Part shown: one piece after another, positions 3,489 to 25,484 of the stretch
Position numbering within the stretch: the first letter of the stretch is position 1
Layout of the letters: each line of letters starts with the position of its first letter
Origin: a virus
Virus record (IMG/VR): IMGVR_UViG_3300044618_001123
Location: 1 to 28,953 of that record
Direction: 5' to 3' (one strand)
DNA length: 28,953 nucleotides
Translations under genes and position numbers: made by a program
Notes under the pieces: generated by a model
Told to the model about the DNA's origin: nothing
The model's database searches: none
What the model saw: only the letters and a program-made list of their open reading frames with translations

Positions 3489-4723
3489 TGGCTTGGTATA
3501 ACGATATATTTAACTTTAACAAACCACAACCGCAAAAGGCTAACATACGTAAAACTATTGACTTTGAGCAACAGTTACAACGTGTAAGGCAAGATGCGAC
3601 AAAGTTTAACATTGCGTTACAAGCGGCAGAAAGCCCGATGTACCCAAACCGCTTCTTGTTGATGCAAACCTACCAGCAGATTGTGTTAGATGGGCAGGTG
3701 CAATCAGCAATGTTGCAGCGTAAATCAAAGATATTGAGCAAGAAGTTTATGGTTTATGGCCCGGATGGCGAATGTGATGAATCTAAAACTGCATTGTTTA
3801 ACCAAAAATGGTTTTATGACTTTCAAAGTTTATCATTAGATTCAATCTTTTGGGGTTTTAGTTGTGTGCAATTTGGCGCAATAATAAACGATAAGTATTC
3901 AAGTGTTGAGCTTATACCGCGCATTTATGTAGTGCCTGAATTTAGTTTAGTGCGCACCAACACAGCAACGGTAACAGAGGGCAAACATTTCGATGTGTCA
4001 CCATACAACAACTGGTGTATAGGTGTAGGTGAAAAAAAGGATTTAGGATTAATGATGTATTTAGCGCCATACGTTATTTGGAAGAAAAACGCAATGGCAG
4101 CGTGGGCTGAATTTGCTGAAGTGTTTGGCAGTCCAATTAGAGTTGGCAAAACAGATGTGCGCGATGAATTAACACGCAAAAACATGGAGAATATGCTACG
4201 CAATATGGGTGTAGCATCGTGGGCTGTGTTGGATTTAAACGACAACATTGAGTTGATGCAAGCAAGCAGAACCGATGCCTATGCAGTATTTGATAAAATG
4301 GTGGAGCGTTGCAATAGCGAAATAAGTAAAATCATTTTAGGGCAAACAGGCACAACCGATGAAAAGTCTTATAGTGGTTCGGCTAATGTACACGAAAGTG
4401 TTGCTGCTATGATTGCAAAGCAAGACACGTTGAAAATGCAGTTTATCATTGAAGACCAATTAGTGCCAATGATGATTCGCAATGGTTTTGACTTAACAGG
4501 TTGCACATTTAAGTATGATGACAGTGAGAATCTGCCATTGATGGAGCAAGCAAAGATAGATGCTTCATTTATGCCATACGTAAAGTTTGAACACGAATAT
4601 TTAGAGCATAAATACGGAATCGAATTGCAGGATGAAATGGGTATGGAGGAAGAAGTAATCGAAACCGAGAATGAAGTAGAATTAACCAACATTGCAAAAC
4701 GATTAAGAAACATTTATAGTTAA
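3488..4723 (+). CDS. Portal protein, DUF935 (Mu gp29-like)
   Basis: This is the dodecameric channel at the head vertex through which DNA enters and leaves. The sequence has the DUF935 look: an N-terminal region with MLQRKSKILSKKF, a central APYVIWKKNAMAAWAEF segment, and the hallmark ILGQT...SYSGSANVH followed by a helix EDQLVPMMIRNGF. At 411 residues it is slightly shorter than Mu gp29 but complete. Upstream is the adaptor and downstream is gpF, the same order of partners as in Mu-like heads. It joins the next gene with a one-base stop/start overlap. Confidence 0.9.
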   Translation: MAWYNDIFNFNKPQPQKANIRKTIDFEQQLQRVRQDATKFNIALQAAESPMYPNRFLLMQTYQQIVLDGQVQSAMLQRKSKILSKKFMVYGPDGECDESKTALFNQKWFYDFQSLSLDSIFWGFSCVQFGAIINDKYSSVELIPRIYVVPEFSLVRTNTATVTEGKHFDVSPYNNWCIGVGEKKDLGLMMYLAPYVIWKKNAMAAWAEFAEVFGSPIRVGKTDVRDELTRKNMENMLRNMGVASWAVLDLNDNIELMQASRTDAYAVFDKMVERCNSEISKIILGQTGTTDEKSYSGSANVHESVAAMIAKQDTLKMQFIIEDQLVPMMIRNGFDLTGCTFKYDDSENLPLMEQAKIDASFMPYVKFEHEYLEHKYGIELQDEMGMEEEVIETENEVELTNIAKRLRNIYS

Positions 4724-6201
4724 TGTGCGGCTACTGCGACATATTGAACATTGACAAGGAGGTTGACCCACCAACACCGTTTGATGAAAACGATTTCAAT
4801 CGTATGTCGAATGATGTGTGGATTGGTGCGATTAATAACCAAGTGTTGCCAGAGGGAATTTATTTAAAGACCGCGAAATATTTAAGAGATGGAATTGATT
4901 TGACACCAGTGGTTGATGAAATATTAACTGCTGATTTAACCAATAACATCTACATATTTTCGGGTGCTAAAACATACCAACAAACAAGGGCAATGACTGC
5001 AATGTTGGCAGACCCCGAATTGCAATCAAACTTCTATAAGTTTAAAGAGGCAGTTAAGCCGATGTTTACGCTATACAACGAAGACTATTTGCAAGCCGAA
5101 TATCAAACTGCTAAAGCTTCAGCACGTATGGCCTCCGATTGGAAGCGTATTGAAGCAGATGCCGATGTATTGCCGTTGTTGCAATATCAAACCGTTGGAG
5201 ATGGCAGAGTAAGACCAACACACGCGGCATTAGATAACATCATTCGCCCTATAAGCGATCCCTTTTGGAAACAATACTATCCACCTAATGGATGGCGTTG
5301 CCGTTGTACCGTAATACAATTGGCACAGGGGGAAGAAACTGATTTGAGTAAGTTTACACCGCCCGAAGATGTGCCGCCATTGTTTCGTATGAACGCTGGC
5401 ATTGATGGCTATGTGTTTAAAGAAAAGGGCAAAGACAAACACCCTTACTTTGACATTGCAAAAGGTGACAAAGAAATGGCTAAAAAGAATTGGAATTTAC
5501 CTATACCACAAGCACCAAGACCTGCGCCTGTTGTTGAAGTGCCGAAAGTGTTTAAGCCTGCTATGAGTGTTGATGAAGCTAAAACAAGAATTGAAAGTTT
5601 TAATATAAAAATAGATGCAAGTTCTATGAAAATAGAGCATTTAAATAAAACGCTTGAAGCGATTGAAACAGTACCATTAAACGCAAGACCAACATCAATA
5701 TTTGATAAAGCGGGATATGAAAAAAACTTCGGAAGGAAAATAGGCAGAAAGGCATCAGAGTTTCAAGGTATGGCATTGGAAACAGAAGTTTTTGATAAAA
5801 AAACAATGTCCTATAAATTTGAAAAAGTACTTGTAATAAATTCAAGAGAGTTTAAAACACCAACAGATATTACTGCAAGAAAAATAAAATACAATGAGTT
5901 TTATACTAAATTAAAAGATGGTAATAAATGGTACTTAAATGAATTTGATGGGTCAACACATTTTCATGAAATGGGGCATTTGTACGACAAAAATATTTCT
6001 ACAAAAAGAGAATGGATTGATATAACAAATAAATGGTTTAATGAAACCAAAGCAGATATGATTAAGGTTTCAAAAGGCGGTGATTTTAGGGGAGAAAATG
6101 GGTCGGAAGCATTTGCTGAAGCGTTTGCATCATACTTTGGGAACAACAAACAGAATTTACCAAGCTATGTAATTGATTACTTTGAAAAAAATATAAAATA
6201 A
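4723..6201 (+). CDS. Mu gpF-like minor head protein fused to an HExxH metallopeptidase-like domain (MuF toxin candidate)
   Basis: Residues ~60-200 are a Mu F-type minor head domain, with the signature DGRVRPTHAALD (160-171) and PPNGWRCRCTV (187-197). A Pro-rich linker follows (about 259-281), then a separate C-terminal domain. That domain has a zincin motif HEMGH (415-419) with catalytic Glu416, and SEAFAEAFASYF (461-472), which offers Glu462 or Glu466 as third zinc ligand. The tail region is visibly more AT- and Lys-rich than the F part. This is the layout of MuF polymorphic toxins, in which a virion-borne head protein carries a C-terminal effector. Alternatively the peptidase could act in head maturation or on the host envelope. 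A 59-residue Cys protein overlaps its stop. The F domain is certain; a toxic role is inferred. Confidence 0.85.
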   Translation: MCGYCDILNIDKEVDPPTPFDENDFNRMSNDVWIGAINNQVLPEGIYLKTAKYLRDGIDLTPVVDEILTADLTNNIYIFSGAKTYQQTRAMTAMLADPELQSNFYKFKEAVKPMFTLYNEDYLQAEYQTAKASARMASDWKRIEADADVLPLLQYQTVGDGRVRPTHAALDNIIRPISDPFWKQYYPPNGWRCRCTVIQLAQGEETDLSKFTPPEDVPPLFRMNAGIDGYVFKEKGKDKHPYFDIAKGDKEMAKKNWNLPIPQAPRPAPVVEVPKVFKPAMSVDEAKTRIESFNIKIDASSMKIEHLNKTLEAIETVPLNARPTSIFDKAGYEKNFGRKIGRKASEFQGMALETEVFDKKTMSYKFEKVLVINSREFKTPTDITARKIKYNEFYTKLKDGNKWYLNEFDGSTHFHEMGHLYDKNISTKREWIDITNKWFNETKADMIKVSKGGDFRGENGSEAFAEAFASYFGNNKQNLPSYVIDYFEKNIK

Positions 6202-12899: not shown

Positions 12900-14444
12900 A
12901 TGGCATTACCAAATATAAACTTTGTCAAAAGCACAAGCGGTTTAGGTAGAGCATTGCCCGGAACAGATTACATTTCGGGTTATGCACATTACTATCCAAG
13001 TGGTGGCACATTACCAACTGGCTTTACTTCAAGCGACAGAATCAAAAAAATATTTTCAGTTGCAGATGCTGAAAATTTAGGAATAACTAATACATCATTA
13101 GGGGCAACTGCTTCTACTGCTACTGATACAATTACAACTAAATTTACTGCTGGCGATACTTTTAAAATTACTTGCAATACAATAGATGGAGTAAGAGCAG
13201 GAGTGCCAATTACTTTGTGCGACTTTACTGCTGTAGCTGCTGATGCTGTAAGTATTACTACAAGCGCGGATAGAATAAGTTTAGAAATAAACTCGGGAAC
13301 ACAAACACATGGTTTTAGTGCTTCAAATGCAGTTGGTGTTGTGACTATTGTAGCACCAAAAAATCAAGGTATATTTTTAAATTCAGGCACACCTTACGTT
13401 GTTACAAAAACAGGTGCAGTTGCTCACACATTAGTTCAAAATGTTGTGTTAGGTGTTGCATCATGGATTGACACATTACATTACCACATTAGCGAATATT
13501 TTAGAATACAAGCTAAAGGCGAATTGTATGTTGGTTTATACGAAGAAGAAGCAAGCACATACACATTTGCAGCATTAACATTGATGCAGAATTATGCAGT
13601 AGGTGCTATAAAGCAAATGGCAGTGTTTGAAAAAAACGTAGCATTTACATCAGCACAATGTGCAGCATTACAAGCTATTGCAACTGCAAACGAAGCGGTT
13701 TACAAACCGATGCAAATAATGTTAAACGCTGAAATCAGCGCAACTGGAAGCGTTGCTACATTATCAGATTTGTCAACACAAACTGCTCCAAATGTAAGCG
13801 TATGTATTGCACAAGATGGCGCAAACGATGGTGATTACCTTTACAAAGCAACTGGCAAAACAGTTGGTTCAATTGGTGCGATGTTAGGCGCAGTTTCTTT
13901 AGCAATTGTAAGCGAATCAATAGGATGGGTAAGCAAGTTTAATATGGCATTAGGTAGCGAATTAGACACTATCGCATTCAGCAATGGTCAATTATATACT
14001 GCGCTTGCTGATAGTCAATTTGAGAGCTTAAATAACTACTCTTATATTTTCTTACGCAAGTTAACAGGCATTACAGGATCGTACTGGTCAGATAGCAAAA
14101 CAACTGTTACACCTACAAGCGATTACTCTACAATTGAAAACAATCGTGTTTATCAAAAAATTACACGTGTAGTTCGCGCAAATATGTTACCTGCATTAAG
14201 TTCACCATTGAGAGTGAATGCAGATGGCACACTAACCGCAGGCACAATAGGTTATTTTGAAACATTAGCAAATAATCCATTAGTGCAAATGGAAGCCGAT
14301 GGCGAATTGAGCGCACATAAAGTTATTATTAATCCAGCCCAAGATGTTTTAGCTACTTCTACACTTGAATTAACATTGCAGAATGTTCCTTTAGGTGTTG
14401 CACGTATCATTAAAATAAACGTAGGCTTCGTAAAATCAGTATAA
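12900..14444 (+). CDS. Tail sheath protein (DUF2586-like)
   Basis: This is the contractile sheath subunit. The start MALPNINFVKSTSGLGRALPGTD and the body with LYVGLYEEEASTYTF, VSKFNMALGSELD and YSYIFLRKLTGITGSYWSDS match the DUF2586 family of Bacteroidetes phages. The C-terminus LTLQNVPLGVARIIKINVGF is the typical conserved strand. At 514 residues it is longer than simple sheaths. The surplus is a Thr/Ala-rich region at about residues 55-175, likely an extra outer domain. It establishes a myovirus-type tail. No promoter was seen between it and the terminator at 12850. Confidence 0.85.
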   Translation: MALPNINFVKSTSGLGRALPGTDYISGYAHYYPSGGTLPTGFTSSDRIKKIFSVADAENLGITNTSLGATASTATDTITTKFTAGDTFKITCNTIDGVRAGVPITLCDFTAVAADAVSITTSADRISLEINSGTQTHGFSASNAVGVVTIVAPKNQGIFLNSGTPYVVTKTGAVAHTLVQNVVLGVASWIDTLHYHISEYFRIQAKGELYVGLYEEEASTYTFAALTLMQNYAVGAIKQMAVFEKNVAFTSAQCAALQAIATANEAVYKPMQIMLNAEISATGSVATLSDLSTQTAPNVSVCIAQDGANDGDYLYKATGKTVGSIGAMLGAVSLAIVSESIGWVSKFNMALGSELDTIAFSNGQLYTALADSQFESLNNYSYIFLRKLTGITGSYWSDSKTTVTPTSDYSTIENNRVYQKITRVVRANMLPALSSPLRVNADGTLTAGTIGYFETLANNPLVQMEADGELSAHKVIINPAQDVLATSTLELTLQNVPLGVARIIKINVGFVKSV

Positions 14445-14447
14445 AAC

Positions 14448-14876
14448 ATGGCAGCAAATGGACTACCGTTAATCAACGGCAAAGCGTATGAGTTCGCAGA
14501 TATTACTTGCATCATACTTGGAACACCAATCATAGGTGTAACCGCAATCGAATATGGCGAAGAGGATGCAACCGAAAACATCTACGCAACAGGTCGTTAT
14601 CCTGTTGCACGTGGCTATGGTCAAATCACACCATCGGCAAAGGTTACAATATTAATGAATGAGGTAATGAATATTGTATCGGCCGCACCAAATGGCAGAA
14701 TCCAAGACATACCAGAGTTTGACATTGTTGTAACATTTACAGATGCTAATTTGATTCCTGTTGTGCATAAAATTCGCAATTGCAGATTTATGAAAAACAT
14801 GATTGCTTCTGCGACTGGTGATACATCAATTCCGATGGAATTAGATTTAGTTGTTTCACATATCGAATTTGTTTAG
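14448..14876 (+). CDS. Tail tube protein
   Basis: This 142-residue beta-rich protein follows the sheath gene, the usual order. It has the LPLINGKAYEFADITCII strand start, then GYGQITPSAKVTILMNEV and the end PMELDLVVSHIEFV. Tube subunits stack into the inner channel of contractile tails. The family match is by position and general strand pattern, but the sheath-tube-chaperone-tape order around it is strong support. Confidence 0.8.
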   Translation: MAANGLPLINGKAYEFADITCIILGTPIIGVTAIEYGEEDATENIYATGRYPVARGYGQITPSAKVTILMNEVMNIVSAAPNGRIQDIPEFDIVVTFTDANLIPVVHKIRNCRFMKNMIASATGDTSIPMELDLVVSHIEFV

Positions 14877-14906: not shown

Positions 14907-15209
14907 ATGAATAATATTGAAGAATTAAAATCAAAGTATGCGGGTGTTGAAATATACACATTAACTGTATTAAACAGACAAGGCACACCTATTACAATTC
15001 ACTTGCGTGAAATGGATAGGATTGCTTACAAGACCGTTAGCGCGTTAATTGCTAAAGATGAATTGATGGGTGTAGAATCGTTTTTAAGAACACTTTGTGT
15101 TGATGGCGATGTAAATGCTATTATCAGTGATTTTAAAGCATTACGCAGCGCAGCACGTACAATTTTGCCGATGTTAGAAACCGAAGCGGGTGAACTAAAA
15201 AAAAATTAG
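14907..15209 (+). CDS. Tail assembly chaperone G (short frame)
   Basis: This 100-residue protein lies between tube and tape measure, where phages encode the G/GT assembly chaperones. It is helical, with LNRQGTPITIHLREMDRIAYKTV in two pieces and a ...RTILPMLETEAGELKKN end. The frame closes at a TAG straight after a run of nine A. Slippage of -1 there continues into a longer frame (see 15203-15379). The G form coats the tape measure during tail assembly in known systems. Confidence 0.8.
   Translation: MNNIEELKSKYAGVEIYTLTVLNRQGTPITIHLREMDRIAYKTVSALIAKDELMGVESFLRTLCVDGDVNAIISDFKALRSAARTILPMLETEAGELKKN
15197..15203 (+). promoter_or_regulatory. -1 ribosomal slippery site A_AAA_AAA
   Basis: The run of nine A (15197-15205) is read CTA-AAA-AAA-AAT-TAG in frame 0. 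A tandem slip by -1 at A_AAA_AAA gives AAA-TTA-GAT onward, avoiding the TAG. A 12-bp perfect hairpin starts 27 bases downstream. Confidence 0.75.
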
Positions 15210-15379
15210 ATTCGGCAAAAAAATTACTTGAAACGGATGAGTTTGCGCGTCAAAATGCACTCATCCGTTTTTATTATCAAACAGACCCAAACCAAATGAA
15301 TGATGAACAATGGGCAGAAGCTATTGAAAGCATTATGTGGGTGTTAAAGTTTAACGGTACAATTCAAGACAAGAAATGA
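15203..15379 (+). CDS. Frameshift extension T of the tail assembly chaperone (GT)
   Basis: In the -1 frame relative to G, an open stretch of 58 codons runs from the slippery A run to a TGA at 15377-15379, which overlaps the tape-measure ATG (ATGA). It reads KLDSAKKLLETDEF, then ARQNALIRFYYQTDPNQMND, EQWAEAIESIMWVLKFN and GTIQDKK. It has no start codon in place after the A run, so it is made only as a ~157-residue GT fusion. In lambda-type systems the T part binds tube subunits. Position and frame arrangement are decisive; the protein itself is not a recognised family member. Confidence 0.8.
   Translation, partial: KLDSAKKLLETDEFARQNALIRFYYQTDPNQMNDEQWAEAIESIMWVLKFNGTIQDKK
15231..15275 (+). 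other. Perfect 12-bp hairpin followed by U-tract inside GT
   Basis: AAACGGATGAGT (15231-15242) pairs perfectly with ACTCATCCGTTT (15259-15270) around a 16-base loop; the 3' side runs into TTTTTATTAT. It lies in the T coding region. It could stimulate the frameshift or act as a weak terminator/attenuator before the tape-measure gene. Confidence 0.65.
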
Positions 15380-16782
15380 ACAATTCGGTTGAATACATAT
15401 TAAGCCTTAAAGATAAGTTTAGCAGTGGCATTAAAAGTGCTACAAGTGAAACTGAAAAACTAAACGGTTCAATGGGTATGGCTCAAAAGTCAGCACTTGG
15501 ACTTGGTTCTGCTATTGCTGCTATTGGAGGCGGTTTAATTGTGCGTGAAATAGTAAACGTAACGGCTGCAATGGAGGGCTTGCAAAATCAATTAAACTTT
15601 GCAAGTGGTTCTGTTCAACAAGGAGCTGCTGACTTTGAATATTTGCGTAAAACATCCCAAGAAATGGGATTAGATTTTAATACTGCTGCGACTGCATTTG
15701 CAAAGTTTAGCGGAGCAGCAAGAAACACATCATTAGAGGGGCAAGGTGTTAGAGATGTATTTGAAAGTGTTGGTATGGCATCAACTGTTATGCACCTATC
15801 AGCAGAGCAATCAGAGGGCGCATTTAGAGCATTAGAACAAATGTTATCTAAAGGCAAAGTAAGTGCGGAAGAATTACGCGGTCAATTAGGCGAAAGAATA
15901 CCGGGCGCATTCCAAATTGCAGCACGTTCAATGAACATGACTACATCGGAATTAGACAAGTTTATGGCCGATGGCAAATTAATGAGTGAAGAATTTTTGC
16001 CTAAATTTGCAGCACAATTAAAAACAGAATTTGCAGGAGGTATGGATGCAGCAACACAAAGTTTAAATGCTAATTTAAACAGAATGAATAATTCATTTTT
16101 AGAATTAAAATATACAATTGGCGAGTTGTTTATGCCAGTGATACAAGTTTCAATTAGTTTAATAAAAGGATTTGTAAATTTTGTTAAAGAAAATATAGGA
16201 GTAATTACGGGTTTAGCAGCAGCATTTGCTACATTAGGAACAGCAGTGTTGGTTTACAATGCAGCTATGAAAATAGCAGCAATTTATTCAGGTGCTAAAT
16301 TTATTTATGGCATTTGGTCACTTGCAGCGGCATTAGATGGGGTAACCGTTGCACAATGGTTATTAAACACTGCAACTGCATTCTTTGCGGGGTTAAGTGG
16401 TGTAGGTTTATTTTTGGTAGCGGCAGGCGCAGCGGCAGCATTAGCGGTTGGTATTTATGCAGCAAATGCAGCACAAGAAAAGTTAAATAAGTCAACTGCA
16501 AAGGGCGCGGCTATTGGTGGGCCTGCAAGCGCAATGAATCCAATGAAAGCTGCAGGTGCAGGCGCACCAACATCAGCAACATCACCTAAAGCTAAAGGTG
16601 GCACAGGAACAAACGTAGTTGAAAGTAGAGGTGTGCAAAACTTTAACATATCAATTAAAGAATTTGGCGCGGTTACACTTAACACAACAAACATTAAAGA
16701 GGGTGCAAATCAAATCAAAGAACAAGTAGCACAGGCATTGATTGAGGCGGTTAATGATTTTTCTTTAATGGCAACTAAATAA
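15376..16782 (+). CDS. Tail tape measure protein
   Basis: This protein sets tail length. The N-terminal part matches the tape-measure N-terminal domain: AMEGLQNQLNFASGS, LRKTSQEMGLDFNTAATAF, and FRALEQMLSKGKVSAEELRG followed by GERIPGAFQIAARSMNMT. Hydrophobic Ala/Gly segments occur near residues 38-58 and 270-370, as in other tape measures that enter the membrane. A Gly/Ala/Pro-rich region and an INISIKEFGAV-like end follow. At 468 residues it is short, so the tail should be short by the usual ~1.5 angstrom per residue rule. The ATG overlaps the GT stop. Confidence 0.9.
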   Translation: MNNSVEYILSLKDKFSSGIKSATSETEKLNGSMGMAQKSALGLGSAIAAIGGGLIVREIVNVTAAMEGLQNQLNFASGSVQQGAADFEYLRKTSQEMGLDFNTAATAFAKFSGAARNTSLEGQGVRDVFESVGMASTVMHLSAEQSEGAFRALEQMLSKGKVSAEELRGQLGERIPGAFQIAARSMNMTTSELDKFMADGKLMSEEFLPKFAAQLKTEFAGGMDAATQSLNANLNRMNNSFLELKYTIGELFMPVIQVSISLIKGFVNFVKENIGVITGLAAAFATLGTAVLVYNAAMKIAAIYSGAKFIYGIWSLAAALDGVTVAQWLLNTATAFFAGLSGVGLFLVAAGAAAALAVGIYAANAAQEKLNKSTAKGAAIGGPASAMNPMKAAGAGAPTSATSPKAKGGTGTNVVESRGVQNFNISIKEFGAVTLNTTNIKEGANQIKEQVAQALIEAVNDFSLMATK

Positions 16783-24662: not shown

Positions 24663-25484
24663 TTAATCAGTGCAAAAACCTGCTTGACAACCGCTTCCAG
24701 TGCCAAAGTTAAAGTCGGTTTGCAATCCTATAGTTTTAATTTGTGCATAGGTAGCTTCTTTTTTCCAAGTAGCGTGTTTTTCTTGGTCTGAAAACCATTG
24801 CATCTTTTCGGTTTCCAAATCCCAATTTTTACGCAATTGTTGCAATGGCTTATGAAAACAACCAACGCAATTTGAATCAGATGGAAAAATTAAATTTGTT
24901 GAATCAGCCCATTTTTTTACTTGCAAATGAGTAACTTTATTTTCAATCAATGGAAAATAACCCTCCCTCCATTCTAACTCACCCCACTTATTTCTATTGC
25001 CATTTTTTGACTTTCCTATAATGCCCTTAAATGTAGTTGACAATCTGCTTGCTCGTTCCAATTCATCGTATCTGAAACCTATGCCCATTTTACACTTTTC
25101 ATTTATGTTTTTAAACCACCAATCAAATATAGGTCTCATCTTCATTTCAGTTGTGCAAAACCTCCAACTTTGGTTAGGTAAACCCTTACCGCCAGTACCT
25201 TGTTTATTTACTTTCTCAAATGTTTTTCCCGTAACCCAAACAATCTCTTTTCCTATTAATTGCTCCAAATCAATAACTGCTTTCAATGTCAAATCACTTT
25301 CAGCAGTTGCAATAAAATCCATACCTATTTTATCACTTACTTTTTGAACTAATGCTTTATCTTTTGGTGTGCATCTTATATCTTCAATTCTAACTAAACT
25401 AAAAATATTATAATCAGCAGGGTAATGGGCTGCTAAATAACTTGAGGTTTTACCTCCGCTTAAACTATTTATTGTTTTCATCAA
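24663..25484 (-). CDS. PAPS reductase/PP-loop ATPase family protein
   Basis: This 273-residue protein opens with the PP-loop SGGKTSSY (residues 9-16) of the adenine nucleotide alpha-hydrolase/PAPS reductase group. It also has a Cys-rich set: RFCTTEMK (C110), NCVGC (C206, C209) and GCQAGFC (C266, C271). These could bind a metal or iron-sulfur cluster. The family includes sulfate assimilation enzymes, tRNA thiolation enzymes and DndC-like DNA phosphorothioation enzymes. Here it lies in a phage lysis operon with no cysteine biosynthesis genes, so nucleic acid thiolation or a nucleotide-based defence or anti-defence role is more likely. No Dnd partner is seen. Confidence 0.75.
   Translation of the reverse strand: MMKTINSLSGGKTSSYLAAHYPADYNIFSLVRIEDIRCTPKDKALVQKVSDKIGMDFIATAESDLTLKAVIDLEQLIGKEIVWVTGKTFEKVNKQGTGGKGLPNQSWRFCTTEMKMRPIFDWWFKNINEKCKMGIGFRYDELERASRLSTTFKGIIGKSKNGNRNKWGELEWREGYFPLIENKVTHLQVKKWADSTNLIFPSDSNCVGCFHKPLQQLRKNWDLETEKMQWFSDQEKHATWKKEATYAQIKTIGLQTDFNFGTGSGCQAGFCTD

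Follow-up and report, generated by a model that had tools for sequence, protein, structure and literature searches.

The question raised by this locus is whether two overlapping reading frames between a tail tube gene and a tape-measure gene form the frameshift pair of tail assembly chaperones known as G and GT, and, if so, whether the ribosome or the RNA polymerase makes the shift. The DNA analysed (the window) is a viral record of 28,953 bases from a myophage with a Mu portal and a DUF2586 sheath, and the gene order near 15.2 kb is sheath, tube, G, T and tape measure. We consider it probable (about 0.85), judging from sequence comparison and predicted structures, that the locus encodes such a G/GT pair. 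The following features are used in the argument.

12900..14444, plus strand: tail sheath of the DUF2586 type (PF10758, E 2e-39; phrog_907, tail sheath).
14448..14876, plus strand: tail tube protein, upstream of G (phrog_4579, tail protein, E 8e-15).
14907..15209, plus strand: G, putative tail assembly chaperone, short product of 100 aa (open reading frame; AlphaFold2 and Foldseek; profile match to 3fgx).
15197..15205, plus strand: candidate slip site of nine A (sequence; kept in relatives).
15207..15209, plus strand: zero-frame TAG stop of G (sequence).
15206..15379, plus strand: T, -1-frame extension of 57 codons plus TGA, which would be read only after a shift (frame, selection, AlphaFold2 model).
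15230..15271, plus strand: conserved RNA hairpin within T, arms 15230-15242 and 15259-15271 (fold z, synonymous control, covariation).
15376..16782, plus strand: tape-measure protein, downstream of T with an ATGA overlap (PF20155 TMP_3, E 1e-35).

The 3' end of G reads GAA CTA AAA AAA AAT TAG in frame. The run of nine A (A9) holds two overlapping heptamers, A_AAA_AAA (15197-15203) and A_AAA_AAT (15200-15206), and the former is an X_XXY_YYZ heptamer in the zero frame, two codons before TAG. An earlier note on this DNA had placed the nine A directly before the stop of G; the run is present, but one T intervenes. The same note described a -1 frame that stays open to the tape-measure start and has no start codon near its beginning, and both statements hold: the frame is open from 15194, its 57 sense codons after the run (15206-15376) lead to TGA at 15377-15379, this stop overlaps the tape-measure ATG (15376) as ATGA, and the first ATG, GTG or TTG appears at 15296. 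Since this position lies beyond the conserved ALIRFYY core, an independent start would remove the domain. A -1 shift would give a GT protein of 157 aa with the junction ELKKKLD. No second run of nine A was found anywhere in the window, and elsewhere in the coding sequence of A9-type loci there is only one in 309 kb.

The predicted fold of G agrees with a chaperone role. In the profile search of G against solved structures, 3fgx was the sole match (E about 1e-5). The AlphaFold2 model of G (pLDDT 89.8) was compared by Foldseek with known structures, and 3fgx was matched with probability 1.00 (TM 0.68/0.70), the HK97 tail assembly chaperone 2ob9 with probability 0.69, and YqbN (3klu) lower down. 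Thus the predicted fold resembles all three, and 3fgx is also alike by sequence profile, although the identity in these structure matches is 17% or less and their Foldseek E-values are only 0.007 to 1.1. At the family level, phrog_19076, which carries no function, matches 45 of 50 G proteins, and the G profile also matches the counterpart of G in Meiothermus phage MMP7, which carries an XkdN-like annotation. Neither the G nor the T of the window was assigned to a family by Pfam or NCBIfam, and no significant match to a Pfam tail assembly chaperone was obtained.

For T, the main evidence comes from relatives. In a first scan of 44 IMG/VR relatives at 70–100% identity, AAAAAAAAATTAG is present in every relative with a complete junction. 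Wider relatives were reached through the sheath, and 313 junctions could be parsed, in 297 of which the -1 frame is open for 40–100 codons past the G stop. Of the other 16, 7 are cut by contig ends, and the rest mostly reflect an apparently mis-chosen G or have no tape measure following. A comparison of 39 distinct T sequences from the clade of the window shows that codons differing by a single base encode the same residue in 65% of cases when read in the T frame, versus 14% and 6% in the other two frames, and none of the differences creates a stop. This bias argues that T is translated. The T model has three helices (AlphaFold2 pLDDT 90.7), and no structural match was found for it. A search of a bacterial genome collection with the GT profile gave no relative, whereas the sheath profile did find relatives there.

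That T is instead an independent small gene, started by its own codon or by coupled translation and unfused to G, is very improbable. The annotators of phage lotta8-2 did call it as a separate ORF from an internal ATG, but the window offers no ATG, GTG or TTG before the conserved core, the slip sites are conserved in the overlap, and selection on the T frame is seen immediately downstream of the slip site. The relatives refute the idea that the disrupted frame is a decaying gene or an error of sequencing or assembly. Homopolymers are error-prone and one relative (L064) has such indels elsewhere in G, but the same A9 occurs in different codon phases on independent contigs, and six-A sites exist in isolated phages.

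These isolated phages are Flavobacterium phages lotta8-2 and FPSV-S1 and Winogradskyella phage Peternella_1. In all three, A_AAA_AAG lies two codons ahead of the stop of G and T follows it in the -1 frame; they share with the window the T core ALIRFY..DP...DEEWA...WVLKF. In the deposited annotations that were checked, T is either split off (lotta8-2 gp039, the separate ORF mentioned above) or omitted. The window's sheath is 39–41% identical to the sheaths of FPSV-S1 and lotta8, and the order of the tail genes also matches. By sequence, the phage belongs to a Winoviridae-like group of DUF2586-sheath myophages. The arrangement between tube and tape measure on which the earlier note relied is strongly supported by position, conservation, selection on T, the fold of G and the homologous T of the isolated phages.

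Several observations concern other parts of these phages. The sheath (12900-14444) carries an insertion of ~115 residues near its N-terminal third, which the aligned sheaths of Flavobacterium and Winogradskyella phages lack. The Mu F-like head protein (4723-6201) has an HExxH motif in its C-terminal region and a sub-threshold Pfam match to zinc metallopeptidases, so that a peptidase is putative. The product of 24663-25484 (minus strand) resembles at its start, by eye, a PAPS-reductase or DndC type (SGGKTSS motif), and Pfam gives no match. In four Flavobacterium genomes (L243, L247, L248, L249), the locus around the DUF2586 sheath includes a tube and an ORF of 114 residues, without a G/T junction or an evident tape measure; these loci are possibly another contractile element.

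The slip sites were then classified in 89 clusters at 60% GT identity. A9 followed by T is found in 38 clusters, evenly split between phase 2 (19; NTA AAA AAA AAY TAR) and phase 0 (19; NNN AAA AAA AAA TAG/TGA), and with a few A9C or A9G sites the A9 total is ~40. The remaining clusters have A6G (21), A6C (7), A8 (8), A7 (2), A10 (1) or other sites (~9). Seven-A sites, which suffice for a ribosomal heptamer, are almost absent; nine are kept, with the surplus A's on different sides according to phase. Position 9 of the run, the wobble base of the third Lys codon, is A in nearly all phase-2 lineages, though AAG makes up a quarter of Lys codons. About six changes between A6 and A9 are placed on the sheath tree. 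For slip type against structure, phylogenetically independent pairs number 3–6, only three of them on well-supported branches, and since the lineages are related, the class comparisons are descriptive.

Scans for the motif itself gave a wider picture. GARYT-A9-TTAGA was searched in 2.9 million viral contigs, and further G/T-like junctions appeared in more distant phages, often with a tape-measure-sized ORF next (L433, L446, L471, L460, L415, L417, L420, L436, L445, L430, L475, L424, L437, L449, L462); in the first three of these, a long stem begins directly at the run. The A10 and A8 versions of the motif were not found at chaperone junctions in the scans; such runs would lose the in-frame stop, so that their absence carries little weight. 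Certain Bacteroidota relatives (L232, L258, L252, L263, L070) have no A run; two codons ahead of the stop of G they show GAG GAG, AAG GAA or GAA AAG, in most cases next to a stem, and in BS-TP1 (L067) the sole candidate is A_AAT_TTA, six codons ahead of that stop. Two short contigs of possible RNA origin do not extend as far as the junction.

RNA structure divides the slip sites further. A stimulator of -1 ribosomal frameshifting usually lies 5–9 nt downstream of the slip site. Dinucleotide shuffles served as one control for stability; a stricter one was synonymous recoding that kept the codon usage of the locus. In the near region, six-A sites reach z -1.53 ± 0.28, with a stem right after the heptamer, often about 6 nt downstream, as in Pedobacter cryoconitis (L234) and Chitinophaga (L267). 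At A9 sites the near-region z is 0.11 and -0.23 in the two phases, and +0.75 in the window; neither the window nor the A9 class has a stimulatory structure at 5–9 nt. A scan limited to 3–53 nt had suggested that A9 sites are without any RNA structure, a view given up when the positional scan found a stem further downstream, with structure peaking 30–70 nt after the run.

This far hairpin, which the earlier note does not mention, begins 20–28 nt after the run in most A9 junctions and some A6G ones; in the window it lies 24 nt past the run and about 20 nt past the G stop. Its fold z in the window is -3.3, and its synonymous-control z is -5.2 in the near-identical relative L001 and -4.3 on average over 26 lineages. 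By class, the synonymous control for the far region gives z -4.32 ± 0.50 in phase 2 (77% below -2) and -2.48 ± 0.56 in phase 0, while controls at the end of T stay at about -0.3. Across 40 aligned sequences, 92% of hairpin cells are paired, versus 31–55% with the partner slid by 1–3 bases. Six pairs are changed on both sides, with 23 double-change cells versus 7 in shuffles. The stem is rebuilt in a shifted register in several lineages, and in L302 it is built from quite different sequence (GAGAGTAGTAGCG/CGCTACTACTCTC). The stem codons are nearly frozen, while the neighbouring codons are variable. The hairpin matched no family in Rfam. Two related ideas were dropped: a lower stem joining the hairpin to the slip site is unsupported in A9 lineages (5.4 versus 4.5 expected pairs in phase 2), and relatives do not keep a further A_AAA_AAA that precedes the window's hairpin by 6 nt (15217-15223).

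Near and far stems tend to replace each other. Among 105 lineages, 5 have both, 20 the near stem only, 48 the far stem only and 32 neither (Fisher p 5e-4 for co-occurrence, with kinship ignored). About a quarter of A9 lineages have neither stem, and L351, an A6G phage nested in an A9 clade, has a near stem and no far stem. On the other hand, a group of A6G phages (L155, L156, L158, L162, L163, L165, L170) does have the far stem, so it is not tied to A9 alone. Most likely, the hairpin belongs to the frameshift cassette as a signal acting in cis.

Another role for the hairpin seems to us rather unlikely, that of a transcription attenuator or mRNA 3'-end element which keeps tape-measure expression low until shifted ribosomes melt it. 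Its position suits such a role, as it starts ~17–23 nt past the G stop, where a ribosome terminating on G would no longer cover it, and T-rich codons come next. The T-tract, however, is barely above the synonymous expectation (4.0 versus 3.5 of 8) and is weak in many phase-0 lineages, and the terminator scan does not list the hairpin, with the caveat that the scan allows loops of at most 8 nt. The tendency of near and far stems to exclude each other also suggests a role shared with the adjacent stems.

A more serious competitor concerns the slip itself, namely that the RNA polymerase is the main shifter: slippage on A9 would add one A to some transcripts and so put GT in one frame, while the six-A relatives would use the ribosome, a contrast like that between the dnaX genes of T. 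thermophilus (polymerase) and E. coli (ribosome). We regard this as less probable than not, yet a good deal speaks for it. The run has the classical length for polymerase slippage, a homopolymer of at least nine A/T, and A9 is described as an efficient slippage site in vivo (PMC5009743). An IS element with A9 slips about 16% in each direction (PMC6211511). The exact length of nine in two equally frequent codon phases, the near absence of seven-A sites, the A kept at the wobble base and the missing adjacent stem all fit the polymerase better. Several facts weaken the case, however. The hairpin is conserved although it can form only once A9 is behind the polymerase, and several A6G sites share it; a KKK hinge could also keep nine A's; and the lineages behind the counts are not independent, considering the few A6/A9 changes on the tree. 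In the open-licence literature searched, no report links transcriptional slippage to tail chaperones.

Two links incline us towards the ribosome. A length of 7–9 A is quoted as needed for polymerase slippage (PMC6211511), and since the six-A sites are shorter, the ribosome should be the family's usual shifter. In addition, polymerase slippage offers no evident role for a hairpin downstream of the run. We therefore favour, with modest confidence, a mainly ribosomal slip on A9. The earlier note's claim of a programmed -1 shift that makes a G/GT pair is strongly supported for the pair, and a ribosomal slip is the more probable of two candidate ways to make the shift. A ribosomal slip and an added A would give the identical protein (ELKKKLD), and junction peptides cannot separate the two. 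It is also conceivable, though we hold it only tentatively, that two layouts have replaced each other several times within one phage lineage: A_AAA_AAG followed closely by a stem, with the ribosome as shifter, and exact A9 with a distant hairpin, where the polymerase does part or all of the shifting.

According to the favoured ribosomal reading, most translation would end at 15209 and give G, while a fraction of ribosomes would shift to -1 at A_AAA_AAA, a favourable heptamer, with tRNA-Lys in both sites, and give GT. Polymerase slippage on A9 may be a second, or even the main, contributor. The far stem could be an unusual ribosomal stimulator, although at 24 nt it falls outside the usual distance. 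A Shine-Dalgarno stimulator is unlikely, because such pairing plays little part in Bacteroidota translation. By analogy with phage lambda, the T part of GT should bind the tube subunit and the G part would coat the tape measure, after which G and GT would leave.

The locus resembles lambda G/GT in its place between tube and tape measure, the -1 direction, a short G with a long GT predicted to be rare, and a T that overlaps the tape-measure start. The slip site of lambda is G_GGA_AAG, whereas the window has A9 and a conserved far hairpin, and no sequence similarity was found. The A_AAA_AAG relatives, many of which have a stem some 6 nt past the slip site, recall the -1 frameshift of E. coli dnaX, unlike the window with its A9 and without that stem. 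Thermus thermophilus dnaX and IS1447 are alike in having exactly nine A or T and no adjacent downstream stem, and here too one added A would yield the observed fusion. They also differ: IS1447 has its own stem upstream of the run (PMC6211511), while the window's hairpin is downstream and its slippage is a candidate drawn from sequence, and in T. thermophilus dnaX the long product stays in one frame (PMC5009743).

Other tailed phages are already well known to use the G/GT frameshift (Xu et al. 2004 on the conserved tail-chaperone frameshift of dsDNA phages, as cited in PMC5009743), and it is documented here across hundreds of phages of Bacteroidota. What is new in the cassette is the exact A9 run plus a distant, covarying hairpin. 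For this hairpin, a conserved RNA element that matched no Rfam family, the sources searched describe no counterpart. Since the family has both six-A sites, where a stem is often adjacent, and A9 sites, where the distant hairpin is the rule, the question of ribosome or polymerase can be tested directly in homologous genes.
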